DNA from: Mucilaginibacter empetricola
GTDB taxonomy: Bacteria > Bacteroidota > Bacteroidia > Sphingobacteriales > Sphingobacteriaceae
Direction of reading: 5' to 3'
Length of the DNA: 64,000 nucleotides
Assembly: GCF_024808665.1 (NCBI RefSeq)
Contig: NZ_JANUBZ010000008.1
Span: forward strand, 241,539 to 305,538
Positions 1,385 through 40,170 of the stretch are shown in pieces. The notes beneath the pieces were generated by a model. It saw only the letters and a program-made list of their open reading frames with translations. It was not told where the DNA came from and did no database searches. The stretch's first letter is position 1, and each line of letters begins with the position of its first letter. The position numbers were made by a program, and so were the translations under genes.

Positions 1385-4300
1385 ATGTATAAAAAACAAT
1401 TACTAAAATTATTTTTTTGCTCTTTGTTTTTACTGTGTTCATCATGGGCCATGGCTCAAAAGATCACAGTAACCGGTAAAGTTACCGACGAAAAGGGGCA
1501 AGTACTTCCGGGAGTTTCCATTGCTATAAAGCAAAAAAATACCGGAACAAATACAGACATTAACGGTAAATACTCACTGAGTGTTAACAGTAATGATGTA
1601 TTGGTTTTTTCTATGCTGGGCTATGCCAATCAGCAAATACCTGTAAATAACCAAAGCGTAATAAATGTTCAACTGGCCGAAGATAACCGCACCTTAAATG
1701 AGGTAGTTGTTATTGGTTACGGAACACAAAAGAGGAAAGATCTTACCGGGTCTATTTCATCTGTTAAGGGCGAAATTTTCAAAGATCAGCCCATTAGCAA
1801 CCCAATTGAGGCCTTACAAGGCCGTATCGCCGGCGTTAACGTAATCGAGAGTTCTGCAGCGCCCGACGCAGTTCCGCAGGTTATCATCAGGGGCGTTGCT
1901 TCATTCTATCAGCCCAATCCGCTTTACATTGTTGATGGCGTTAGGCAGTCTGACTTAAACAACGTTAACCCCCAGGACATTGCATCTATTGATGTAATGA
2001 AAGATGCAGCATCCGCTGCTATTTACGGCTCTGCAGCAGCAGGTGGTGTTATATTGGTAACCACCAAAAAGGGATCAAATGTTGGTGCTCCGCCATCTAT
2101 CAATTTTAGCGCCAGATATGGTGTTACCAACCCAAAACTGGTTCAATTGCTTAACAGTAGCGATTTTATAAAATTGCAGAATATTGTTAATCCGTCATTT
2201 TTTAAGGGTGCAACCAGAACGGATACGCTTGCTAATACCAATTGGGTTGATCAACTATACAGAAAAGGTACAGAGCAAAACTATAATATTTCCATTTCCG
2301 GTGCGTCGCCTAATGTTAACTACCTGGCTTCAGGGTTTTATAACCAGCAAACAGGTATTTTTATTAAAAACTACTCAAACATTGGTGGTTTCCGCGCTAA
2401 TACCGATTATAAATTAAGCAAATACATCACCATCGGTGAAGAAATACAAGGATCTCAGCGAATCACTTCACCTTTGGTAGGTGCTCAGGCAGATTTGCAT
2501 AATGCGCCATTCCGCACGCAGCCCATTATCCCGGTACACAATCCCGATGGATCATGGGGCACAGAGCCTCCGGGTTATGGCATACAATTTCAGGGGCCCA
2601 ATCCTTTGGGTGCTGTAGAATCGGCCAGCGCACAGGATACCAAAAACAATTTCCAGGGAAATGCTTATGCTGATATTAAATTGCCTCTTCATTTAGATTT
2701 CAGAACCACTTTTGGCTATAGCTATTATTTGGAAACAGAAGACATATTCCAAAATGCTTACAATTTTGGACCTGTTTCCTCGCCCATTAATAACCTGGCT
2801 AAATCATATGCGCAAAGCAGTCAGTTATTAAGCAACTATGTGCTTTCATATAACCAAAGTTTTGGCAAACACAACATCAGTGCTACCGCGGGTTATGAGC
2901 AAATTACTGATAAAACCAACAATATTTATTCGAATATGAGTCAGGTAGGTATAAATGGTTATTCTTATGTTCAAACATCAGCATCTTCTTTAGCACTTTC
3001 AGGCACTTATGATCCTCAAAGCTTAATACAATCGCAGTTTGCACGTGTAAACTATAACTTTAATGAGCGTTATTTTATATCTGGATCTATCAGGCAGGAT
3101 GCCAATGACGTTTCATTCGGCCCTAACAAACAAAAAGGTGTGTTTCCGGCCGTTTCGGGAGGCTGGACAATCAGCGAAGAGCCCTTCTTTAAATCAGGCA
3201 TTCCAGGTGTCAATAGTTTGAAATTACGCGGAAGTTATGGACAGTTAGGTAACAGTAATACCGGAAGTGCTTATCCTTTCAATGCACCTTATGGTCAGTT
3301 TAATATCAGTACAGGTATAGCAGGCGGCGCACAAGGTTTTGCGGCGGGCCAGCCGTTCCAGATTGCTAATACATTAAGCGGTATTCCTAACCCTAATTTA
3401 CATTGGGAAACCATTACCGAAACCAATATCGGTATTGATGGTGAGGCACTTAATGGTAAGCTTTACTTCACCGCTGAGTGGTACAACAAAAAAACAAGCG
3501 ATCTGATATACTCGCTTACATTGGCTCAAAGCAGCGGATTTACAGTGCCTTATGTAACCAATATTGGCGATGTAGATAATAAAGGGGTTGATTTAATGGC
3601 CGGATATCACGATAAAATTGGCAAGCTGGGCTTTGACGTAAGCGCTAACATCAGCTTTAACAAAAATATGGTTACCAAGCTAAGTGGTGCCGCTACAGAC
3701 GCTGTATATGGTGGTTATAACTATTACACAATGGGCGATCAGGCGTTTAACATGATGCCTAATCAGCAAATAACCATTACAAAAGCAGGCCAGCCGTTTG
3801 GTGAGTTTTATGGTTACAAAGTATTAGGTATATTCCAGACAGACGCGCAAGCTGCAAAACAATCTGTTAACGGAAACGTAGCCCATGCCGGTGACCTTGA
3901 ATTTCAGGATCTGAATGGTGACGGCAAAATTGACGCTAATGACAGACAGGTTATTGGTAACCCTAATCCTAAATTTATTTATGGCTTCAACATCCGCTTA
4001 AATTATGCCGGCTTTGATTTGGCCGCTTTATTCAATGGTGTTGGTGGTGTGCAATTGTTTAATGGTGTACAAGCTTATGAACAATCGTTATTTCAGGATG
4101 GTAATACAACCAAACAGGTGTTTAATGACTCGTTCCTTGGATCAAATGGCTTAACCAGCCAGCCGAGACTTGGAGTGCCAACAAATGGCGGATTTATCTT
4201 AGATCCAAACCAAAACTACTCTTCAGTAAACAGTTATTTCGTTCAGAGTGGCGCTTATTTAAAGCTTAAAAACTTACAGATAGGCTATACTTTCGGCAAT

Positions 4301-4513
4301 AATGTTTTAAAACAAATTGATGTCAAAACTTTAAGAGTGTTTGTAATGGCTAATAATGTATTCACTATTACAAAATACAAAGGATTGGATCCTGAGTTAG
4401 GCAGTGCCTTTACTACAGGCGGTTCAGTAAACCCAACAACACAAGGTATTGATGCCGTGACAAATTATCCGCAGGCAAGAATTTTCTCTGCAGGTTTAGA
4501 TGTTAGTTTTTAA
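1385..4513 (+). CDS. SusC/RagA-family TonB-linked outer-membrane transporter
   Basis: The 1042-residue product has a signal peptide ending near SSWAMAQ, then a carboxypeptidase-regulatory-like domain (about residues 27-100, starting ITVTGKVTDEKG). The SusC linker VVVIGYGTQKRKDLTGSI follows, then a plug domain with LYIVDGVR and DVMKDAASAAIYGSAAAGG, and a long beta-barrel ending in FSAGLDVSF. Length and motifs are normal for SusC. It forms the outer-membrane import channel with SusD, encoded 25 bp downstream. With the neighbouring GH97 enzyme the likely cargo is an alpha-glucan oligosaccharide, but substrate cannot be read from sequence. The 5' regulator probably controls expression. Confidence 0.95.
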   Translation: MYKKQLLKLFFCSLFLLCSSWAMAQKITVTGKVTDEKGQVLPGVSIAIKQKNTGTNTDINGKYSLSVNSNDVLVFSMLGYANQQIPVNNQSVINVQLAEDNRTLNEVVVIGYGTQKRKDLTGSISSVKGEIFKDQPISNPIEALQGRIAGVNVIESSAAPDAVPQVIIRGVASFYQPNPLYIVDGVRQSDLNNVNPQDIASIDVMKDAASAAIYGSAAAGGVILVTTKKGSNVGAPPSINFSARYGVTNPKLVQLLNSSDFIKLQNIVNPSFFKGATRTDTLANTNWVDQLYRKGTEQNYNISISGASPNVNYLASGFYNQQTGIFIKNYSNIGGFRANTDYKLSKYITIGEEIQGSQRITSPLVGAQADLHNAPFRTQPIIPVHNPDGSWGTEPPGYGIQFQGPNPLGAVESASAQDTKNNFQGNAYADIKLPLHLDFRTTFGYSYYLETEDIFQNAYNFGPVSSPINNLAKSYAQSSQLLSNYVLSYNQSFGKHNISATAGYEQITDKTNNIYSNMSQVGINGYSYVQTSASSLALSGTYDPQSLIQSQFARVNYNFNERYFISGSIRQDANDVSFGPNKQKGVFPAVSGGWTISEEPFFKSGIPGVNSLKLRGSYGQLGNSNTGSAYPFNAPYGQFNISTGIAGGAQGFAAGQPFQIANTLSGIPNPNLHWETITETNIGIDGEALNGKLYFTAEWYNKKTSDLIYSLTLAQSSGFTVPYVTNIGDVDNKGVDLMAGYHDKIGKLGFDVSANISFNKNMVTKLSGAATDAVYGGYNYYTMGDQAFNMMPNQQITITKAGQPFGEFYGYKVLGIFQTDAQAAKQSVNGNVAHAGDLEFQDLNGDGKIDANDRQVIGNPNPKFIYGFNIRLNYAGFDLAALFNGVGGVQLFNGVQAYEQSLFQDGNTTKQVFNDSFLGSNGLTSQPRLGVPTNGGFILDPNQNYSSVNSYFVQSGAYLKLKNLQIGYTFGNNVLKQIDVKTLRVFVMANNVFTITKYKGLDPELGSAFTTGGSVNPTTQGIDAVTNYPQARIFSAGLDVSF

Positions 4514-4538
4514 TAATAAACTTTAAAATTTTACGAAG

Positions 4539-6374
4539 ATGTTTAAGAAAAAATATATAGCAGCGCTCGCCCTAATTTTAATAGCGGGAGTGGGATGTAA
4601 AAAGGAGCCAAAAAACGCCGGCGCACCCAATGAATATAATAGTAGTACGTATCCGGCCACTGTTACTGATTTACAAAGTGTATTAGTATCATGCTACGCC
4701 AATTTGCGCGATCAGGGCATATTTGGGTTCCACTATTTACCAAAAGCATTGTCGAATTCAATGCATACGGTTAACTCAGAATATGGCGGTGATCCGGGAT
4801 GGAATGAAATGGCGGCCAATAATCTTACTGTTGGTAATGAATATCCATCAGAAACATGGGCAGCATTGTACACCGGTATAAAGAACTGTAACGTTACCAT
4901 TTATGCAGCAGGTGTTTTGCAAAAAAACAATCCATCGGCAGATAAGCAAACAATTAACCTGATCCTGGGACAGGCATACTGCCTTCGCGGATGGTATTAC
5001 ATGCAATTAGAGTGTTTATTTGGCCAGGCTTATATAACAGCCGGCGGCGTGAATGGTAACTTAATGGGCGTTCCGCTGTATACAGCTGTACCTACAAATT
5101 TAGCTCAAACACAGGTAGAACGTAGCACAGTACAAGCAACATGGGCATTAATTGTAAGTGATGAAAAACAAGCTGCAACTTTGCTTAAAGGCCAGGTATG
5201 GCCTGCTACTGATGCTGCACGTGCAACTGAGTGGGCGGCAAAGGGCCTTTTAGGTAAAGCTTATGTTTATACTCAGGATTGGGCCGATGCCGTAACTGTA
5301 TTGCAGGACGTAATTCAAAATAGTGGTAAAACATTAATGCCATATGCTACTTATCATGACGCTTTCAATGGCGATAATAAATTCAACACTGAATCATTGC
5401 TTGAACTATATATCGATCAGAATTCTATGGGTGGATATGGAATTTACAGCGGTGCTGCAAACTCTTCAACTATTGATGGATTGATATGGGCTCCAAGAAC
5501 ATTTGGTGGCTATAGTGGTACAGTTCCATTTAACGGAACTGAAGGTAATACACAAGCATTAGGCTATCCCAATGAGTTTGTTCACGATCAAAATGTGACC
5601 CGTTTTGGTTTCCCCCTACCAACTGCTTATAATCTGGTAAATAACCCTAAGTATACCGGTTCTAATCCTTCATTCCTTAACCCTGCTCAAATTCAGGATC
5701 CAGCCTATAAAGCACAGGCCTTAGCAGTAAGAGCAAATCAAACTGCCGACCCTCGCTTATTTGTTAATACACTGGAACCATGGATAGATTCTGTAAAGTA
5801 TGACGGAACCAATTTTGCATTGGTTTCAAAACCGGATGTTTACGCTTATCAGCAAAATCACTATGGTTTTAGCATGAGAAAGTATTCTCCTATTGATTAC
5901 AATGAAAATACCATTAACTCAGACAAGTGGGATTATTACCTGCTTCGTTTGGCCGACGTTTATTTGCTTTATGCAGAAGCAAGCATTGGCGCAGGTGACG
6001 GAGTAACAGGTTTGGAGTATCTAAACAAAGTTAAGCGCAGAGCATATGGTTTACCTATCAATACGGCATCAGCAATTGATTATAAATCACTAACCGACCA
6101 AACCAGCGCAGCGAATCCACTTTATCCTGACCCGGTACTTGGACATAACCCATTGTATTATGAGCGCTGGGCAGAGCTGTTTAACGAAGGCACCTGGTGG
6201 TTTGATGTATGCCGATGGAAAATAGGTGACTCTGAGGCGGCTTATTACCAATCGGCCTTAAATGCCACTCAGCCTTTAACGGCAACTTTTGTTGACAATA
6301 AATCATATGTGTGGCCTATACCTTTGTCAGAAATAAATACAAACTCAAAAATTAAGCAGAACCCTGGGTACTGA
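4539..6374 (+). CDS. SusD/RagB-family nutrient-binding lipoprotein
   Basis: 611 residues with a lipoprotein signal (lipobox IAGVGC, Cys at about residue 20). SusD-like TPR helices (WAALYTGIKNCNVTIYAAG, CLRGWYYMQLECLFGQAY) follow, and the C-terminal signature is typical (YERWAELFNEGTWWFDVCRW ... IKQNPGY). SusD caps the SusC barrel on the cell surface and binds glycan. It follows susC by 25 bp and is closed by a strong intrinsic terminator, so the pair forms one transcription unit separate from the GH97 gene downstream. Length is a little above the usual 500-600 residues. Confidence 0.95.
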   Translation: MFKKKYIAALALILIAGVGCKKEPKNAGAPNEYNSSTYPATVTDLQSVLVSCYANLRDQGIFGFHYLPKALSNSMHTVNSEYGGDPGWNEMAANNLTVGNEYPSETWAALYTGIKNCNVTIYAAGVLQKNNPSADKQTINLILGQAYCLRGWYYMQLECLFGQAYITAGGVNGNLMGVPLYTAVPTNLAQTQVERSTVQATWALIVSDEKQAATLLKGQVWPATDAARATEWAAKGLLGKAYVYTQDWADAVTVLQDVIQNSGKTLMPYATYHDAFNGDNKFNTESLLELYIDQNSMGGYGIYSGAANSSTIDGLIWAPRTFGGYSGTVPFNGTEGNTQALGYPNEFVHDQNVTRFGFPLPTAYNLVNNPKYTGSNPSFLNPAQIQDPAYKAQALAVRANQTADPRLFVNTLEPWIDSVKYDGTNFALVSKPDVYAYQQNHYGFSMRKYSPIDYNENTINSDKWDYYLLRLADVYLLYAEASIGAGDGVTGLEYLNKVKRRAYGLPINTASAIDYKSLTDQTSAANPLYPDPVLGHNPLYYERWAELFNEGTWWFDVCRWKIGDSEAAYYQSALNATQPLTATFVDNKSYVWPIPLSEINTNSKIKQNPGY

Positions 6375-6389
6375 TATAGTTGATTAATA

Positions 6390-6424
6390 AGTGTAAAGCC
6401 GGTGAGATGGCTTTACACTTTTTT
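6390..6424 (+). terminator. Intrinsic terminator after susD
   Basis: Perfect 11-bp inverted repeat AGTGTAAAGCC / GGCTTTACACT with an 8-nt loop, followed by a six-T tract. It lies 16 bp after the susD stop codon and ends the susCD transcript. Confidence 0.9.
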
Positions 6425-6807
6425 GTTTAATCATTTAATACCCCTGAAAATGTATTTGAATTACTTTCCGAAATTGCATTCAGCAAGTAAAAATCAATTC
6501 ATTTGATATTGTTTTACGTGTTTTGAAAAAGAAACCCGTTCTTTTGCATGGGTGCATCCCATCAAAACCATCACAGTATTTGCTTCAGGGGAATAATATT
6601 AGATATTATACTCGGACATCCGCGGTTTAACCGGATTAAGATGGCAAACCATCCGTAAGGAAGCAATTTGCAATAAACTCAATGAGTTTTTATAAAAGTT
6701 TCCCGGTTTAAGCAGCAATAATTACATACTTCTCAATTTAAAAGCAAAATAAATAACGCTTTGACCATTTAAAGCTGAGAAACTTTAACAGAGTAAATTA
6801 TATAATA
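6425..6807. other. Intergenic region upstream of GH97 gene
   Basis: About 380 bp without a credible ORF. It must hold the GH97 promoter, since a terminator precedes it. No exact TAnnTTTG with a good -33 box was found. Confidence 0.35.
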
Positions 6808-8946
6808 ATGAAAAGAATTTTTGTCTGTTTATTTAGCCTGGTAATTCTTGGCGCTGTAAAAGCGCAGGATAAACCGGTTATCAACGCAAGCATGAATAAG
6901 GTGAAACTGAATTTTATGCTTGATGCAGATGGTAAAGCTGCTTACAGTGTTTTTTATGGCGATAAACCAGTCATAAATAATTCTTACCTGGGCATTAAAC
7001 TGGTTGATGACAATTCATTCGACAAAGACTTTGTTCTGACAGGCTCGGAGAAAAGCAATGTTGATGAGAGCTGGCAGCCGGTTTGGGGCGAGGTAAAAAA
7101 TATTCGTAACCATTATGAACAGGTGGTGGTACATCTGAAACAAAAAACCGCTCCCGGCAGGTTGATGAATATTATTTTCAGGGTATTTGATGATGGGGTT
7201 GGATTCAGATACGAATTTCCAAAACAACCCGGTCTTAAATATTTTATCGTTGCTGATGAACTGACGGAATTTAGTTTAACCGGCGACCACAAAACTTTTT
7301 GGATCCCGGGTGATTATGATAGCAATGAATATCAGTACACTATTTCTCCTTTGAGTCAGGTGGATGCATCAGTGCTGGCAAAATCGGCAACCGACATTGC
7401 CGTACGTTTTGTACCGGATAAGTATGGTATACAAACGCCTTTGATGATGAAAACCAGCGAAGGTCTTTATATCAATATTCATGAAGCCGCCCTGTCAAAT
7501 TATACCTCTATGCAGCTGCATGTAGATACCAAAACGTTTAAGCTTACCGCCAATTTGGTGCCCGATGCTGTTGGCAATAAAGCTTACATGCTTGTCCCGT
7601 GCAGCACCCCCTGGCGAACGATTATAGTAAGCGATAAAGCCGCAGACATATTGGCATCCAAAATGATTCTTAATTTGAATGAACCTTCAAAAATTGAGAA
7701 TACATCGTGGATAAAACCGATGAAATTTGTTGGGATATGGCTGGAAATGCAAACCGGAAAAAGCACCTGGAATTATGCCGATAGGGCAGATACCCTTGGA
7801 GCCGATGGAAAGCTTATTCCAAACGGAAAACATGGGGGCAATACTGCCAATGTTAAAAGATATATTGATTTTGCTGCCAATAATGGTATTCAGGGGGTTT
7901 TAGTTGAGGGATGGAACGTTGGTTGGGAGGATTGGTTTGGAAACTGGAAAGAAAACGTTTTTGATTTCGTTACGCCTTATCCTGATTTTGATGTAGAGGC
8001 AATAACAGATTATGCTGCTTCAAAAGGCATAAAAATGATAATGCACAATGAAACCTCTGGTTCGGCCACTAATTATGAACGCCAAATGGATACTGCCTTC
8101 CGTTTTATGAATAAGTATGGCTATACATCGGTAAAAACCGGGTATGTGGGCCGTATTATTCCCCGCGGCGAGCACCATGATGGCCCTTGGATGGTGGCAC
8201 ATTACGTACGTGTGGCGCAAAAAGCTGCCCAATACCACGTAATGCTGGATGCCCATGAACCCGTTAGACCAACCGGTTTACAGCGTACCTATCCTAACTG
8301 GATGGCCTGCGAAGCAGGGCGGGGTAACGAATACAACCTTTTCAGCAGCGGCAATAACCCGGGGCATGAAACCATTATGCCATTTACCCGACTGATGGGT
8401 GGCCCGATGGATTATACGCCGGGAATTTTTAATATCAATGGATATTCTACTGTTCCGGGCAGGCAAGTGCATACTACACTGGTAAAACAGCTGGCTTTAT
8501 ATGTTACCATGTACAGCCCGTTGCAGATGGCCGCTGACATGCCTGATAGCTATGAGAAGCATATGGATGCTTTTCAGTTTATAAAAGATGTAGCAGTTGA
8601 TTGGGATGATACCAAAATTATTGAAGCCGAACCGGGTGAATATATTACCATTGCCCGCAAAGAAAAAGGCGCTGCAAACTGGTATGTAGGTGCGGTAACC
8701 AACGAAAATGGCCGGAATGCTGTTATACCGCTTGATTTTTTAGACAAGGATAAAAAGTATGTTGCAACCGTTTACGCCGATGGCGCAGATGCCGACTGGA
8801 AGCTAAATCCAGGATCATATCAAATTACTAAGTTTTTGGTAAAGGCCGGCACAAAACTAAATATCAAACTGGCAAACGGGGGCGGAGCTGCCATCAGCAT
8901 AAAACCCGCAACCACTGCCGACGATGGTTTAAAGTTTTATAAATAG
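6808..8946 (+). CDS. GH97 alpha-glucosidase (SusB-like, inverting type)
   Basis: 712 residues with a signal peptide (cut near AVKAQ). The GH97 N-terminal beta-domain (IIFRVFDDGVGFRYEFP, about residue 120-140) and the catalytic barrel are present. Visible motifs are HNETSG (about 412), VKTGYVGRIIPRGEHH, DAHEPVRPTG (about 480) and a Glu in ACEAGRGNEYN. In GH97 the inverting SusB type uses Glu residues at these positions and has Gly (VKTG) where the retaining subgroup has a nucleophilic Asp; that comparison is from memory. Predicted role: periplasmic hydrolysis of alpha-glucosidic bonds in sugars imported by the upstream SusCD pair. Exact linkage is not determined. Confidence 0.92.
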   Translation: MKRIFVCLFSLVILGAVKAQDKPVINASMNKVKLNFMLDADGKAAYSVFYGDKPVINNSYLGIKLVDDNSFDKDFVLTGSEKSNVDESWQPVWGEVKNIRNHYEQVVVHLKQKTAPGRLMNIIFRVFDDGVGFRYEFPKQPGLKYFIVADELTEFSLTGDHKTFWIPGDYDSNEYQYTISPLSQVDASVLAKSATDIAVRFVPDKYGIQTPLMMKTSEGLYINIHEAALSNYTSMQLHVDTKTFKLTANLVPDAVGNKAYMLVPCSTPWRTIIVSDKAADILASKMILNLNEPSKIENTSWIKPMKFVGIWLEMQTGKSTWNYADRADTLGADGKLIPNGKHGGNTANVKRYIDFAANNGIQGVLVEGWNVGWEDWFGNWKENVFDFVTPYPDFDVEAITDYAASKGIKMIMHNETSGSATNYERQMDTAFRFMNKYGYTSVKTGYVGRIIPRGEHHDGPWMVAHYVRVAQKAAQYHVMLDAHEPVRPTGLQRTYPNWMACEAGRGNEYNLFSSGNNPGHETIMPFTRLMGGPMDYTPGIFNINGYSTVPGRQVHTTLVKQLALYVTMYSPLQMAADMPDSYEKHMDAFQFIKDVAVDWDDTKIIEAEPGEYITIARKEKGAANWYVGAVTNENGRNAVIPLDFLDKDKKYVATVYADGADADWKLNPGSYQITKFLVKAGTKLNIKLANGGGAAISIKPATTADDGLKFYK

Positions 8947-8974
8947 ACATAATAAACCTTAAACCTTATCACAT

Positions 8975-9012
8975 TAAAAGAGCTTGCCGGTTAAACTGGC
9001 AAGCTCTCTTAG
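8975..9012. terminator. Bidirectional terminator between GH97 and DUF202 genes
   Basis: Perfect 10-bp inverted repeat AGAGCTTGCC / GGCAAGCTCT with a 9-nt loop, flanked by T/A runs on both sides. It lies between convergent genes and can serve both strands; the T tract is longer on the minus strand. Confidence 0.8.
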
Positions 9013-9067
9013 TATACAATAACATTATTCCCGCATAGTTGTGTTTCAAATAAACCTGCGACTTTAA

Positions 9068-9451
9068 TTACAACCCTGGTAAAAGGTAGACAATCAGCAA
9101 ACAACCAATAGCAAAGATGGCAAGCGTAATAAAAAGTAGTAAAGTGAAGGATGGCTTATATGATTTGCTTGTTATTTGTTTTTCGGTGACCCGGTACCGT
9201 ATATAGGCCAGCAAGGTTAAAATAACGCCTAGTGTCACCAATAAAATTCCTATTTGTGTCGAGTATCCTTTGTTAGGTAATACAGTGTCTTTGCTGTTTA
9301 ATACTAAAGCGATTTGCTTAATAAAAAGTGAAAATTTTACTACAACAAAACCAAGCCCTATTATGGCAATACTGGTTCGTATCCACGCTAAAAAAGTGCG
9401 CTCATTGGCCAAATGATCTGAAGGGTTGGCAGGTAGTTTATTGTCTTCCAT
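9068..9451 (-). CDS. DUF202 (YidH-family) small membrane protein
   Basis: 127 residues. The N-terminal hallmark LANERTFLAWIRTSIAIIG at about residues 14-32 is typical of DUF202/YidH proteins. Three hydrophobic segments follow (about 27-47, 65-84 and 101-124), giving an inner-membrane protein with a short soluble N-terminus. The function of the family is unknown. It stands alone between a terminator and the regulator gene, so no operon context helps. Family assignment is firm. Confidence 0.85.
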   Translation of the reverse strand: MEDNKLPANPSDHLANERTFLAWIRTSIAIIGLGFVVVKFSLFIKQIALVLNSKDTVLPNKGYSTQIGILLVTLGVILTLLAYIRYRVTEKQITSKSYKPSFTLLLFITLAIFAIGCLLIVYLLPGL

Positions 9452-9512
9452 TTCTACAAAGATAAAAGCTCAGCTCAAACAAAAACAGGTTCGTTTTTAC
9501 ATAGATGAGCCG

Positions 9513-10565
9513 TTAATTATAGCATTTTTTTATGGCTTTTTTTAATAGGTCGACGGCATCTTTTAGTTCAGTAGTATTTAATGATGCAAAGCCAAGCCTT
9601 ACAGCATAATTTTTAAAGTTTTTATCGTGATAATAATCAATGCCGTTACTAACGGTGAGCCCCAATTCTGCCGCATTTTCTGCCACGCGGACGGGATCAT
9701 GTTTATTAATATAATTTATCCAGATGGCAAATCCGCCTTCCGGAACTTTAAACGATACCTCGTCGGCCAAATGCTCGTGCAACAATCGGCATAATTCATC
9801 CCGCCTTTCGTGATAAAGTTTATTGGCTTTTTTAAGATGCCGGCTAATGTCACCGTTTTTTAAAAGATTAGCCATGGCTTCTTCCAGCAAATGTTCCCCC
9901 TGCCTATCAATCAATTTGCGCAGTTTGGTGGCTTGCAACAAAAAATTTGATGGAGCCACCATAAAGCCAATACGGATACCGGGTGCAATAGTTTTGCAAA
10001 AAGATCCCACATAAATTACGCTGCCGTAGTAATTAGCACTGGCCAGGGGTAGCACCGGACTGCTGGAATATTGAAAATCAAAATCATAATCGTCTTCAAT
10101 AATAGCAAATTGATATTTTTTAGCCATTTCCAGCAGCCTCATACGCCTTTCGGAGCTAAGTGTAACCGTTGTGGGTGTGTGATGATGTGGGATTACATAC
10201 AATAATCTAATCTTCTTCTTTTTACAGATGCTTTCAACTACATCTAAATCAATGCCATCATCATCAACAGGTACCAGCTCTAATTTCGCCCCGGCTTGTT
10301 CAAATATTTCATTCGCTCCCGAATAACCCGGTTCGCCAACAATAACGGTGTCATTTTTAGTCAGCAAAATTTGCGCTGTGAGATATAGCGCCATTTGTAC
10401 CCCTTTTGTTATTAAAATATCTTCTGCGCCAACGTTGAGTCCTCTGGTTTCTGATAAAAAATGGGCGAGCTCAGTTCTTAAATTTTCAGAGCCCTGCTCG
10501 GGGCCGTACATCAGGTATTTATGGGTAAATTGATAAGATGCAAACCTCCGGTATTCTCTCACCAA
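9513..10565 (-). CDS. MocR/PdxR-type regulator, aminotransferase-like part (after frameshift)
   Basis: This is the C-terminal 350 residues of a GntR/MocR-family regulator: a class I aminotransferase-like fold that binds PLP. Visible motifs: KYLMYGPEQGSENLRTELAH, the Asp-containing FAIIEDDYDFDFQYS, and VIYVGSFCKTIAPGIRIGFM with the expected PLP lysine (SFCK). The frame is open further upstream and reads NDGFPDTRIAPVELL before the start listed here, the normal MocR linker. It is out of frame with the HTH part at 10571-10996. The two halves are one gene broken by loss of one base near 10608-10612, unless the ribosome slips there. Regulatory target: probably the divergent DoxX operon. Confidence 0.85.
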   Translation of the reverse strand: MVREYRRFASYQFTHKYLMYGPEQGSENLRTELAHFLSETRGLNVGAEDILITKGVQMALYLTAQILLTKNDTVIVGEPGYSGANEIFEQAGAKLELVPVDDDGIDLDVVESICKKKKIRLLYVIPHHHTPTTVTLSSERRMRLLEMAKKYQFAIIEDDYDFDFQYSSSPVLPLASANYYGSVIYVGSFCKTIAPGIRIGFMVAPSNFLLQATKLRKLIDRQGEHLLEEAMANLLKNGDISRHLKKANKLYHERRDELCRLLHEHLADEVSFKVPEGGFAIWINYINKHDPVRVAENAAELGLTVSNGIDYYHDKNFKNYAVRLGFASLNTTELKDAVDLLKKAIKKCYN

Positions 10566-10570
10566 TAGTT

Positions 10571-10996
10571 CTACAGGCGCAATGCGGGTATCGGGGAAGC
10601 CGTCATTAAAAACAAGTTGCTTTCGGGGCCGCTTTTAAACAGGCGGCGGGTAATCATATTGTCGTTTACATAAAACGAGGTTTCGGCAGGCAAACTATGT
10701 GGCCTAACAACATCCAGTATAGGTCTTGGCGTAACATCGGGCAGCTTTTTGGCAACAAAAATGCCTTTACGCGGAACTACATCTACCCAGCTTTGCGCAT
10801 ACAATTCATCGTAAGCGGCTACTATAGTTTTCCGGTGAACTTTCATCTCTTGTGCCAGCACCCTGCTTGACGGCAACGCGGAGCCTGGCCTTAATGTGCC
10901 CTGCCTTATATGTGATATAATGCCATTAGCTATTTGCTGATATACAGCTACATGGAGGTCTTTTTTGATTTTTAATAAGTTTTCCGTTAAAATCAT
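10571..10996 (-). CDS. MocR/PdxR-type regulator, GntR HTH part (before frameshift)
   Basis: 141 residues holding the winged-helix GntR domain (QIANGIISHIRQGTLRPGSA, then LPSSRVLAQEMKVHRKTIVA, about residues 20-65) and the linker of a MocR-type regulator. The last residues (NLFLMTASPIPALRL) are out-of-frame readthrough. In the neighbouring frame the same DNA reads NDGFPDTRIAPVELL, which continues into the aminotransferase-like domain at 9513-10565. As sequenced, the HTH is cut from its effector domain. The start ATG faces the divergent promoter and the palindrome at 11022-11041, the probable operator. A one-base sequencing error in the A-run remains possible. Confidence 0.82.
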   Translation of the reverse strand: MILTENLLKIKKDLHVAVYQQIANGIISHIRQGTLRPGSALPSSRVLAQEMKVHRKTIVAAYDELYAQSWVDVVPRKGIFVAKKLPDVTPRPILDVVRPHSLPAETSFYVNDNMITRRLFKSGPESNLFLMTASPIPALRL

Positions 10997-10998
10997 AC

Positions 10999-11041
10999 TG
11001 GACTATGTTGTTTGTTGTTTCTGGACTACTAATGTAGTCCA
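10999..11041. promoter_or_regulatory. Candidate MocR operator: palindrome plus half-site
   Basis: In the 82-bp divergent gap, TGGACTAC (11022-11029) and GTAGTCCA (11034-11041) form a perfect 8-bp inverted repeat around TAAT. A further direct copy, TGGACTAT, lies at 10999-11006, 23 bp upstream. Sites made of a direct repeat plus an inverted copy are common for MocR-family dimers. The likely binder is the divergently encoded regulator. Confidence 0.65.
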
Positions 11042-11078
11042 ATGAGTTGGTAAATTAGTATCTAAATAATAAATAGTT

Positions 11079-11624
11079 ATGGAAAAGAATTCATCAGTCA
11101 AAATCATCGCTGTATATCTAAGAATAGCCATTGCAACTGCTTACCTATGGGAAGTTGCCGACCGTTTGGGTTTTCTGGGCGTTCACGGCCGGCCGCATGT
11201 AGGTTGGGGAGATTGGGCTCATTTCGTTGCTTATGCACATGATGTTATGCAATTTCTGCCATCTGCAATTATTCCTGCGCTGGCGGTTATTGCCACCATT
11301 GGCGAGGCACTTTTTGGTTTGCTGCTATTGTTTGGTTTGTTTACACGTTTTGCAGCTATTGGAAGTGGCATTTTAAGTTTCTGCTTTGCATTGGCGATGG
11401 CCATTTCTTTCGGTATAGATTCTCCGCTGGGGTATTCGGTATTTACGTTAAGTGCTGCAAGTCTCCTTTTAGCAACCTTGCCCGAATATGGCTTTAGTAT
11501 TGATGCCCTTATAAACATCGACAGAAAAATAAAAAAGGTTGGTAGTAGCGATGACTTATCAGTTGCGACTGATAATCCGCTAAGCGCGGGCGACAGAAAC
11601 TTTATTTATGCAATGTTAAAATGA
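11079..11624 (+). CDS. DoxX-family membrane protein
   Basis: 181 residues with four hydrophobic helices (about 10-30, 63-90, 92-115 and 118-138) and the DoxX pattern LRIAIATAYLWEVADRLGFL ... ATIGEALFGLLLLFGLFTRF. DoxX-like proteins are inner-membrane proteins loosely tied to thiol and oxidative stress or quinone redox; the function here is not known. First gene of a three-gene operon: its stop overlaps the ATG of the next gene by 4 bp (ATGA). Expression is probably controlled by the divergent MocR-type regulator through the palindrome 38 bp upstream. Confidence 0.85.
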   Translation: MEKNSSVKIIAVYLRIAIATAYLWEVADRLGFLGVHGRPHVGWGDWAHFVAYAHDVMQFLPSAIIPALAVIATIGEALFGLLLLFGLFTRFAAIGSGILSFCFALAMAISFGIDSPLGYSVFTLSAASLLLATLPEYGFSIDALINIDRKIKKVGSSDDLSVATDNPLSAGDRNFIYAMLK

Positions 11625-34497: not shown

Positions 34498-34867
34498 GAT
34501 TTTGGTAACATCAATTAAAGGCAATAAATAAGCCAAAGATTTTGAAATGGCCACGTTATTACCCCCTGGTTAAACTGAACGGATAGTTTAGTGTACCAAG
34601 ATAGTTAAAACAAAGAAAAATCCGGTTCCATAATTATGAAATATACTGAAATAAAGGAATAAAGCTTAAATAGGAGGCATGTCCCAAGCGATAATGCAAT
34701 AATGTGGAATGAGTGGCTTTACCTCAAAATAGGGGATTAGTTTCTAAATAATGGGATTTATAATCCCCAATTTGATGATAAAAACGCCTTTGGGTATGAA
34801 ATAATTATTTTTTAAATTTATTCTACTATTTATATAGATTAAGTAGTATATTTGTTTCACTCGAAAA
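34498..34867. other. Intergenic region with an 8-bp inverted repeat
   Basis: Between the divergent TPR and micropeptide genes. GGGGATTA (34732-34739) and TAATCCCC (34761-34768) form 8-bp arms with a 21-nt loop; there is no T tract. A 69-codon minus frame across 34744-34953 has no support. Confidence 0.35.
34847..34854 (+). promoter_or_regulatory. TAnnTTTG -7 box before the Met/Cys micropeptide
   Basis: TATATTTG is an exact -7 consensus ending 13 bp before the ATG of the 30-residue peptide. No TTG was found 19-21 bp upstream. Confidence 0.5.
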
Positions 34868-34960
34868 ATGACAGTAAAGAAATTAAATATCATCAGCAAA
34901 ATAGCATCCGGTTCAAATGAGCCTATGTGTATGATGATGTGCTGTTGTTGCAAATCATAA
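34868..34960 (+). CDS. Met/Cys-rich micropeptide (30 aa)
   Basis: A short frame, ATG to TAA, below most gene-finder limits. It has a basic amphipathic start (MTVKKLNIISKIASG) and a tail in which nine consecutive codons are only Met or Cys (MCMMMCCCC), followed by KS. It has its own TATATTTG box 13 bp upstream. Possible roles: a leader peptide whose translation senses sulfur amino acids; a copper- or zinc-binding peptide; or a precursor of a modified peptide. The next full gene, 198 bp downstream, is a cysteine-free redoxin-fold protein. No terminator hairpin was seen between them, which weakens the classic-attenuator reading. No family is recognised. Confidence 0.55.
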   Translation: MTVKKLNIISKIASGSNEPMCMMMCCCCKS

Positions 34961-35028
34961 AACCGCTACTGGTCAAGGCTACATCCATCACCAAAACCTT
35001 ATCACTATATTTTCAATTCGAAATTTTT

Positions 35029-35112
35029 ATGTCTACCTATCTTAAACACATACTTACCCAATTTCATTACGAAAAGCTCTATGGATTGAGCCATTGTTGT
35101 ATGAAGCGTTAA
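35029..35112 (+). CDS. Possible second small ORF ending in Cys-Cys (27 aa)
   Basis: ATG 35029 to TAA 35112 gives a 27-residue peptide whose tail is LSHCCMKR. Like the peptide before it, it is short, has a Cys/Met cluster near the end, and closes with basic residues. No clear promoter or ribosome site is seen. It may be chance, but two small frames with Cys-rich tails in a row are notable. Confidence 0.25.
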   Translation: MSTYLKHILTQFHYEKLYGLSHCCMKR

Positions 35113-35157: not shown

Positions 35158-35799
35158 ATGTTAGTAACAGCAAATAAATATCCATCATTTGATCTTTCGG
35201 AAATAGTGACCGACAATGATCTTTTATACAGAGCTTTTCAGCCCCTGCAGCCAGTAAAAGCAGGTAATATTGTTCCTGATTTTAATTTGAATAATGAGTA
35301 CACGCTTTGGCAACGCTTTAGTCACGGTGCGGAAACGCATGGCCCGGTTTCCATCAGGCAATTATTAAACAAACCGTTGGTAATAGCTTTTTATTCAAGA
35401 CATTGGCTTAATTACGGATTGCAGCAGTTAATTCAGCTGGATGCACTACAGGCAGAAATTAAGGCACATGGTGGGAATTTGCTTATTGTTGCCGCCGAAA
35501 AAGACGAGCAACTGAGTAAAACTGCATGGGAAAATAGCCTGTCGTTAAATTTTTATTACGATGTAGCTAACAAGATTGCCGAAGAATTTAGAGTTTATTC
35601 TGACAACGATCCGGTTTGGAACAAATTCTCAGGCATTGATACCAATGTGCCTTTGTTGGCAACTTATGTTATTAATTCATCAAGACAGGTGGTTTATGAT
35701 CATATTGATACCGATTTTACTGGTGCTTTTCCGGTAAAAGGCATTCTTTCGGCTGTATATGAATCGGCTTTGATACACAACAATAAAAAATCGGCTTAA
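35158..35799 (+). CDS. Redoxin/AhpC-TSA-fold protein without cysteines
   Basis: 213 residues, no signal peptide. The thioredoxin-fold core of peroxiredoxins is visible: KAGNIVPDFNLNNEYTLW, then KPLVIAFYSRHWLNYGLQQL at the position of the usual active-site loop, then LLIVAAEKDEQLSKTAWENS and FRVYSDNDPVW. Both usual Cys positions are other residues, and the whole protein contains no Cys at all. It therefore cannot act as a thiol peroxidase and may be a binding or chaperone protein. Its neighbours upstream are Cys-rich micropeptides. Followed 38 bp downstream by a secreted protein on the same strand. Confidence 0.72.
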   Translation: MLVTANKYPSFDLSEIVTDNDLLYRAFQPLQPVKAGNIVPDFNLNNEYTLWQRFSHGAETHGPVSIRQLLNKPLVIAFYSRHWLNYGLQQLIQLDALQAEIKAHGGNLLIVAAEKDEQLSKTAWENSLSLNFYYDVANKIAEEFRVYSDNDPVWNKFSGIDTNVPLLATYVINSSRQVVYDHIDTDFTGAFPVKGILSAVYESALIHNNKKSA

Positions 35800-39633: not shown

Positions 39634-40170
39634 ATGGCAACAACAACAAAATGGGTAATTGACCCAATGCACTCTGAAGTACAGTTTAAAGTAAAACACT
39701 TGGTTATTTCAACTGTAAGCGGTTTTTTTAAAAGCTTCGAAGGTACCCTTGAAACTGAAGGTGATGATTTTGAAAACGCAAGCATTTATTTTGCGTTAGA
39801 TATTGATAGCATTGATACGAATCAGACCCAAAGAGACGAACACTTAAAATCACCTGAGTTTTTTGATGCAGGTCAATTTCCTCAAATTACTTTTAAATCA
39901 ACATCATTCAAAAAAACTGATGATGATGAGTTTAAACTGGTAGGTGATTTAACTGTAAAAGGTGTAACTAAAAATGTAACGCTTGATGCTGAGTTTGGTG
40001 GTTCAACTGATGATTTTTACGGCAATACCAAAGCTGGTTTTGAGGTAACAGGTAAAATTAACCGTAAAGATTTTGGTTTAACCTGGGATGGCGTAACCGA
40101 AGCCGGTTCTGTTGTTGTGGGCGAAGACATTAAATTGCTTATTAACATTCAGTTTGCAAAACAAAAATAA
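39634..40170 (+). CDS. YceI-family lipocalin-like protein
   Basis: 178 residues with WVIDPMHSEVQFKVKHLVIS at the N-terminus and the YceI pattern SIDTNQTQRDEHLKSPEFFD, followed by FKLVGDLTVKGVTKNVTLDAEFGG. YceI proteins form a beta-barrel that binds isoprenoid or long-chain lipids. No signal peptide is visible, so it may be cytoplasmic, unlike many Gram-negative YceI proteins. Short, regular codons suggest strong expression. Single-gene unit with an ordered promoter region. Confidence 0.93.
   Translation: MATTTKWVIDPMHSEVQFKVKHLVISTVSGFFKSFEGTLETEGDDFENASIYFALDIDSIDTNQTQRDEHLKSPEFFDAGQFPQITFKSTSFKKTDDDEFKLVGDLTVKGVTKNVTLDAEFGGSTDDFYGNTKAGFEVTGKINRKDFGLTWDGVTEAGSVVVGEDIKLLINIQFAKQK

Follow-up and report, generated by a model that had tools for sequence, protein, structure and literature searches.

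The redoxin locus and its promoter region

The window, that is the whole stretch of 64,000 nucleotides of Mucilaginibacter empetricola DNA analysed here, carries a gene for a redoxin-fold protein that is preceded by two short open reading frames (sORF1 and sORF2), a promoter box and a palindromic site:

34823..34846, + strand: palindromic operator-like site, CTACT-N14-AGTAG, directly adjoining the promoter box
34847..34854, + strand: promoter box TATATTTG, 13 nt 5' of the sORF1 ATG
34868..34960, + strand: sORF1, predicted leader peptide MTVKKLNIISKIASGSNEPMCMMMCCCCKS, 30 codons
34925..34951, + strand: MCMMMCCCC, nine consecutive Met/Cys codons, proposed cysteine-supply sensor
34961..35020, + strand: C-rich, G-poor stretch (C 30%, G 10%) directly after the sORF1 stop, candidate Rho loading site
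35029..35112, + strand: sORF2, MSTYLKHILTQFHYEKLYGLSHCCMKR, predicted second leader peptide with a YGL..C tail (YGL..CC in the window)
35158..35799, + strand: redoxin-fold protein (AhpC-TSA), no Cys, Met as start only

The 30-codon frame and the exact TATATTTG box 13 bp upstream of it had been described in the first-pass annotation, and both are present; of its statement that the frame ends in nine Met/Cys codons, the run stands and the terminal position does not, as Lys-Ser lies between MCMMMCCCC and the stop codon. The window thus reads CCCC-KS-stop, and its relatives mostly have CCC or CCCC at the stop. We take TATATTTG to be a Bacteroidota -7-type promoter box, and its 13-nt distance from the ATG implies that the sORF1 transcript would have a very short 5' leader or none. 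The next gene had been read as a redoxin fold without cysteine, in agreement with the predicted protein's match to the AhpC-TSA profile above cut-off (PF00578, E 1.2e-13) and with its complete lack of Cys, the peroxidatic cysteine of peroxiredoxins (AhpC/TSA) included. The lack of Met beyond the start and the existence of sORF2 are additions to that description. A PDB sequence search with the redoxin gave no match at E 0.01, and we know of no place for the protein in cysteine synthesis.

In the GTDB collection, 27 stretches contain the operator pattern ACTAN5ATAGAN5TAGTATATTTG, 25 from Mucilaginibacter and two from Bacteroidetes MAGs, and a related pattern with one mismatch allowed was located 44 times, in 42 of the 149 genomes searched for the genus (reversed control, 5). 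The pattern is specific only in forms that include its centre or the full box: within the window genome, searches with one to two mismatches stayed below the reversed control (91 vs 280 forward; 98 vs 272). CTACTA and TATAGA..TAGTAG elements are common to promoters of the redoxin, sulfate-assimilation (cys) and SusC classes at differing positions, and the two Rrf2 proteins of the window genome, one encoded near the cys operon and the other behind a transporter cluster, are candidate operator binders.

Conservation of the two leader peptides

When the 149 genomes of the genus were searched for the redoxin, 96 had a match at E 1e-20, with 100 places among the matches listed. In the best 30 loci a TAnnTTTG box (exactly TATATTTG in 29), an operator-like site and a sORF 27-36 codons long are present without exception; the sORF has a Cys-rich tail, in many cases MMCMCCCC-stop. 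A family-level search of 151 genomes (matches at E 1e-40 in 12) added nine loci, of which eight have a Cys-bearing tail, including 4/4 from two other genera (exception, L142). Among 20 diverged loci with 26-44% redoxin identity, a Cys-tail sORF was found in 19 (not in L360), 11 of these with a box recognised by script. The conservation that the first-pass annotation had proposed as a check is therefore evident: a sORF with a Cys-bearing tail lies upstream of the redoxin in 57/59 loci counted, at redoxin identities down to 26%, a count that includes L144, whose sole sORF is YGL-type with a single terminal Cys, and that covers 55 of the 100 listed places in the genus; outside it, two further places (G109, G115) also have the sORF. 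As a chance level, at most 4/153 other ORFs (177 less 24) have a Cys-tail sORF without a box at a distance of up to 400 nt.

The conserved part of sORF1 is its tail. The N-terminus is not conserved and the number and spacing of the Cys codons vary among loci, but three consecutive Cys codons are kept in 29/31 loci and their third positions span seven of the eight possible combinations; codon-position counts within the CCC or YGL codons by which sORFs were picked are fixed by the picking and do not constitute a coding test. sORF1 would in this way have the clustered codons for the sensed amino acid that belong to the translational side of an amino-acid attenuator.

The second sORF follows the spacing of the first. 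In 26 of 31 loci at least about 195 nt separate the end of sORF1 from the redoxin, and 25 of these 26 have a sORF2 with a YGL..C tail, L057 being the only long-spacing locus without one. Across the closest 31 loci the last sORF ends 46-83 nt 5' of the redoxin start in 30. YGL-type sORFs are present in 32/59 loci (25 of the 31-locus set together with L138, L144, L343, L344, L345, L347 and L361). The tail is ungapped in the DNA alignment and stands out, with varied third positions; the 21 aligned versions had been picked for YGL, so that the invariance is not independent and the codon-position counts of 21/0/81 prove little. A degenerate YGL-tail pattern matched in 48/301 genomes. As a family-wide element the tail was discarded: only 10 of the 30 loci read are convincing and all of them are redoxin-linked (nine in this genus, one in another), most of the other loci read lying inside longer frames or lacking an ATG start. 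As an observation apart, one genome has a fluoride riboswitch near the redoxin locus (RF01734, 46.7 bits; L061, 1347-1409, minus strand).

Sister leaders and sulfur-free targets

In the window genome a TATATTTG box and MRATYFRSKKTTMYCCMYSNV also precede a sulfate-assimilation operon that begins with sulfite reductase and includes two genes of the PAPS-reductase family (predicted Cys/Met leader peptide, L187 4045-4110; operon, 4193-11559; G000:C9). Sulfite reductase is present in 39/41 genomes, and among the 30 loci read 20 have, before the operon, a sORF with a box and a Cys-bearing tail; a recognised Cys sORF is absent from the other 10, in four of which the nearest box lies just 50-80 nt 5' of the gene, as if leaderless. 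The alignment of 19 of these leaders (the 20 less L209) shows in 19/19 a conserved stem, GCCYCTT...AAGRGG(C/U), with a U-run behind it; its seven core pairs are intact throughout and three outer or loop-side pairs are broken in one to three leaders. The cys-operon leader is thus built like an attenuator, with a predicted intrinsic terminator of textbook form.

Runs of the TGTTGTTGC type give 65 CCC-stop matches in the window genome and 22 in the reversed control. In-frame CCC-stop sORFs starting with ATG number 12; one, the leader MKAFLLSHSSSSKLSGAFQVRMMCCLCCCC of a SusC/SusD pair, has a TAnnTTTG box. Another, MRMHLATKVMCCCCCC, precedes a gene for a PhyH-family dioxygenase and lies behind a related palindrome, CTACTAAATCTATAGATATAGTAT (L155, site near 3984, G000:C4:319983), with no canonical TAnnTTTG box within the reach of our script. 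Similar Cys tails thus precede unrelated genes, namely those for sulfite reductase, SusC and PhyH. In other genomes the operator pattern lies before a thioredoxin-fold gene (sORF tail YFYCCC), near which a gene matches the YeiH sulfate-exporter family below cut-off, before a gene that we take to be ECF-sigma-like (tail MYMCC), and between divergent genes of which one is presumably cysE-like, with no Cys-run sORF there.

The redoxins contain very few sulfur residues. Cys is absent from 35 of 39 of them and from 15 of the 20 diverged ones, and all 59 together contain 28 sulfur residues in about 12,416 (11 in 8,242 for the 39 loci, 17 in about 4,174 for the diverged 20). The 120 listed of 350 homologues in the database contain 58 in 25,859, with 75/120 at zero; for comparison, Cys makes up 0.94% and Met 2.03% on average (about 3% together) in 47 long ORFs of the window. 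The SusC-type TonB receptor behind MKAFLLSHSSSSKLSGAFQVRMMCCLCCCC has a similar composition:

L312 (G000:C7:244000-253000), 3342-6473, minus strand: SusC-type TonB receptor, 1043 residues, no Met/Cys after the start, boxed leader MKAFLLSHSSSSKLSGAFQVRMMCCLCCCC

This receptor is likely part of a sulfur-starvation uptake system. A search with it gave 38 matched places, of which 30 were read. At 58% identity or more, a Cys-tail sORF is found in 18/18 loci, the window genome's own included, with a box in 14 by script, and the 18 proteins (L323, L324 and L328 incomplete) contain 10 sulfur residues in about 18,257; two other SusC-like ORFs of the window have 1.04% and 1.15%. Among 12 SusC proteins at 43-50% identity, an unboxed Cys-tail sORF precedes four; of the eight that have none, L334 contains seven sulfur residues, L340 ten and each of the other six a single one. 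L142 and L360, the two redoxins that lack a sORF, are also sulfur-poor, with one residue each. Depletion therefore does not need such a leader. A leader, in turn, does not always go with depletion: sulfur residues make up 1.5-4.6% of the cys-operon enzymes, PhyH has 4 Met in 268 residues and SusD 3 in 494.

A common scan of 193 ORFs of at least 200 aa from 38 sources, in which zero sulfur was no selection criterion, contained 20 ORFs without sulfur residues, all of them behind a boxed Cys-tail sORF (19 redoxins, one SusC); as 34 of the 38 sources came from operator patterns (27 + six + one, a few of them overlapping), redoxins are over-represented in it. A boxed Cys-tail sORF precedes 24 of the 193, and besides the 20 these are sulfite reductase, the cysE-like gene (weak sORF), the thioredoxin-fold gene and a redoxin with one sulfur residue.

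Some further observations concern the same protein families. An FGE-type protein is encoded upstream of SusC in L329 (PF03781, E 2.2e-84), which may point to sulfate-ester scavenging; GldK, to which there is a below-cut-off match, shares the domain. An upstream element of about AACAACGAAACAGGGATCGATTGGCGTTGAGCCTGTTTC, diverged in L335, is common to the sulfur-poor SusC genes without a Cys-tail sORF in L329-L335; its distance to the SusC start varies, it looks like a structured RNA, and Rfam gave no match for it in L329, L333 or L335. In the window, a YceI-family protein (39634-40170) has a single Met/Cys after its start (0.56%).

Cysteine sensing and the output of the redoxin leader

The recurrence of the Cys tail, the sister elements and the composition of the targets lead us to suggest that sORF1 is most probably a leader peptide that senses cysteine supply and controls the redoxin within a sulfur-starvation regulon. 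Of the roles offered in the first-pass annotation, a sulfur-amino-acid-sensing leader is the one that holds up, given a kept Cys tail behind a variable N-terminus, a sulfate-assimilation sister with a terminator, and targets stripped of Met and Cys. In this model (i) transcription would start just 3' of the TATATTTG box and be subject to an operator akin to the one at other sulfur genes, (ii) with cysteinyl-tRNA plentiful, the ribosome would clear the Cys codons, stop and leave, (iii) the C-rich, unstructured RNA after the stop would then be exposed and Rho would terminate transcription before the redoxin, and (iv) with cysteine short, the ribosome would stall on the Cys run by the stop and shield the C-rich stretch, so that transcription would proceed into sORF2 and the redoxin. 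The redoxin, like the SusC behind the sister leader, has a composition that may have been purged of Met and Cys for synthesis without sulfur. A sORF of this kind also stands before the sulfate-assimilation operon, and there it leads into what has the anatomy of an intrinsic terminator. Cys codons do not account for the YGL of sORF2, which we speculate could be a second checkpoint, either Cys-dependent or acting through the nascent peptide.

The output step of the redoxin leader is a proposal, no terminator or conserved fold having been found there. A scan of the + strand from sORF1 to the redoxin found no intrinsic terminator, as had been noted before; the fold of the leader RNA is no better than that of shuffles (z -0.22), no conserved RNA fold was found in the aligned redoxin leaders, the alternative terminator and antiterminator structures of an amino-acid attenuator were not found in the redoxin leader, and Rfam at gathering scores gave no match in the leader of the window or in those of 15 loci searched. 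The missing terminator had been taken to argue against simple attenuation; it does not count against attenuation of the Rho type. In the 30 closest loci, C makes up 24.6% and G 8.2% of the 60 nt that follow the sORF stop. In a wider set of 56 leaders the stretch behind the first Cys-tail sORF averages 23.4% C vs 10.9% G, with more C than G in 52 and no C excess in four, and the corresponding values are 16.3% C vs 14.6% G in 24 ordinary leaders of the window, 11.7% vs 19.0% upstream of the operator, 15.2% vs 15.6% after the redoxin stop and, as a weaker excess, 23.2% vs 14.6% in 16 SusC leaders. C-rich, G-poor RNA is the composition expected at a Rho loading site, and the stretch after the sORF stop is the reason why, within the sensing model, we tentatively favor Rho-dependent attenuation as the output of the redoxin leader, at a little short of an even chance. 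In TnaC-type control a stalled ribosome blocks Rho. The logic proposed here is alike in that a ribosome held at the leader stop would hide a Rho site, and differs in that the stall would come from a lack of cysteinyl-tRNA, the action of Rho being a proposal.

Alternatively, ribosomes on sORF1 and sORF2 may govern initiation at the redoxin, by re-initiation or by release of the start site, with no termination involved. Such translational control would fit a leader without an intrinsic terminator and a last sORF that ends so close to the redoxin start in 30/31 loci; as there is no conserved structure able to mask that start and the sister cys leader carries a terminator, we regard it as possible but rather doubtful. 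The peptides could also act themselves, as metal-binding or thiol/redox peptides working with the redoxin. Their Cys/Met-rich tails invite this reading, as does the sORF2 tail kept in 25/26 long-spacing loci over varied third codon positions, but the unconserved N-terminus of sORF1, the varying number and spacing of its Cys and the similar tails before genes as unrelated as those for sulfite reductase, SusC and PhyH make it improbable.

A precursor of a modified peptide natural product (RiPP) would likewise be short, with a variable body and a Cys-rich C-terminus. RiPP leaders are conserved for enzyme docking, whereas the N-terminus is the very part of sORF1 that varies, and the few neighbours scanned (a metallophosphatase, a Rieske oxygenase, YceI and two without a family) include no known maturation enzyme, so that we consider a precursor role for sORF1 or sORF2 very unlikely. 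The metal-binding peptide and the modified-peptide precursor put forward in the first-pass annotation were both set aside for want of a conserved recognition leader and of maturation genes among these neighbours. The joint role that it had held plausible for peptide and redoxin would rather be that of a regulator and its target. That a TGN repeat of low complexity arose by chance and has no function is hardly credible: TGTTGTTGC-type runs do occur in excess of the reversed control, but their recurrence in 57/59 loci and their placement behind operator and box refute it.

Mycobacterial polycysteine leaderless sORFs reportedly act as cysteine-responsive attenuators (Canestrari et al. 2020, Mol Microbiol). 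The redoxin leader resembles these sORFs, as far as the available portion of the mycobacterial work goes, in having a short ORF at the transcript start, a C-terminal Cys cluster and a place upstream of sulfur-related genes; it belongs to another phylum, with no sequence relation claimed. The operator palindrome, sORF2, the distance of about 200 nt from sORF1 to the gene and the Met/Cys-free target are features of the redoxin leader that the same portion does not ascribe to the mycobacterial sORFs. Clustered Cys codons in mycobacterial uORFs are described in the accessible text of PMC4633059, and that of PMC8632094 describes in Rhodobacterales a uORFC-8-2 motif before cysS, with tandem Cys codons, as a proposed sensor of charged tRNA-Cys. 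According to the latter text (PMC8632094), uORFC-8-2 combines two stems with an intrinsic terminator; none was found in the redoxin leader, and the Mucilaginibacter cys leader has a terminator. Closer by, leader-peptide attenuation before amino-acid operons has been inferred in Flavobacterium psychrophilum, in the excerpted report (PMC9723704).

Near-total depletion in a gene behind a Cys-codon leader sets the redoxin apart from sulfur sparing as it is described in the available part of the Rhodococcus work and from that of phycocyanin. Cyanobacterial phycocyanin has a sulfur-poor form. In Rhodococcus IGTS8 a sulfur-sparing response has been described, in which proteins of sulfur limitation are poor in Cys and Met (PMC8557817, in part), and sulfur starvation raises antioxidant enzymes in Pseudomonas, according to the accessible part of PMC12581299. 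In the literature searched we found no report joining Mucilaginibacter with a leader peptide and none linking a translational cysteine sensor to sulfur-free targets. Cys-codon leaders are known elsewhere; the setting in Bacteroidota, the tandem sORFs and the sulfur-free targets distinguish the present case, and the finding extends beyond a lone micropeptide.

In its widest form, which we put forward as a conjecture, less likely than not to hold in full, the model is that Mucilaginibacter, a genus of soil bacteria, has a dedicated sulfur-starvation programme in which Cys-run leader ORFs stand before genes purged of Met and Cys, encoding a redoxin free of a catalytic Cys and an outer-membrane SusC receptor, with lack of cysteine as the on-switch; the redoxin leader would be two-stage, sORF2 being a new YGL..C arrest peptide that acts after the codon sensor of sORF1, and Rho would be the terminator. 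Such a programme would link the sensing of cysteine by translation with target proteins whose sequences have evolved free of sulfur. Because one genome carries both the redoxin and the cys leader, Rho-based and hairpin-based attenuation could be compared there in a natural test behind the same codon sensor, and the Cys-run leader tail may be an easy marker by which genes of sulfur starvation can be found in Bacteroidota, among them the Cys-free redoxin and outer-membrane uptake systems that are not yet annotated.
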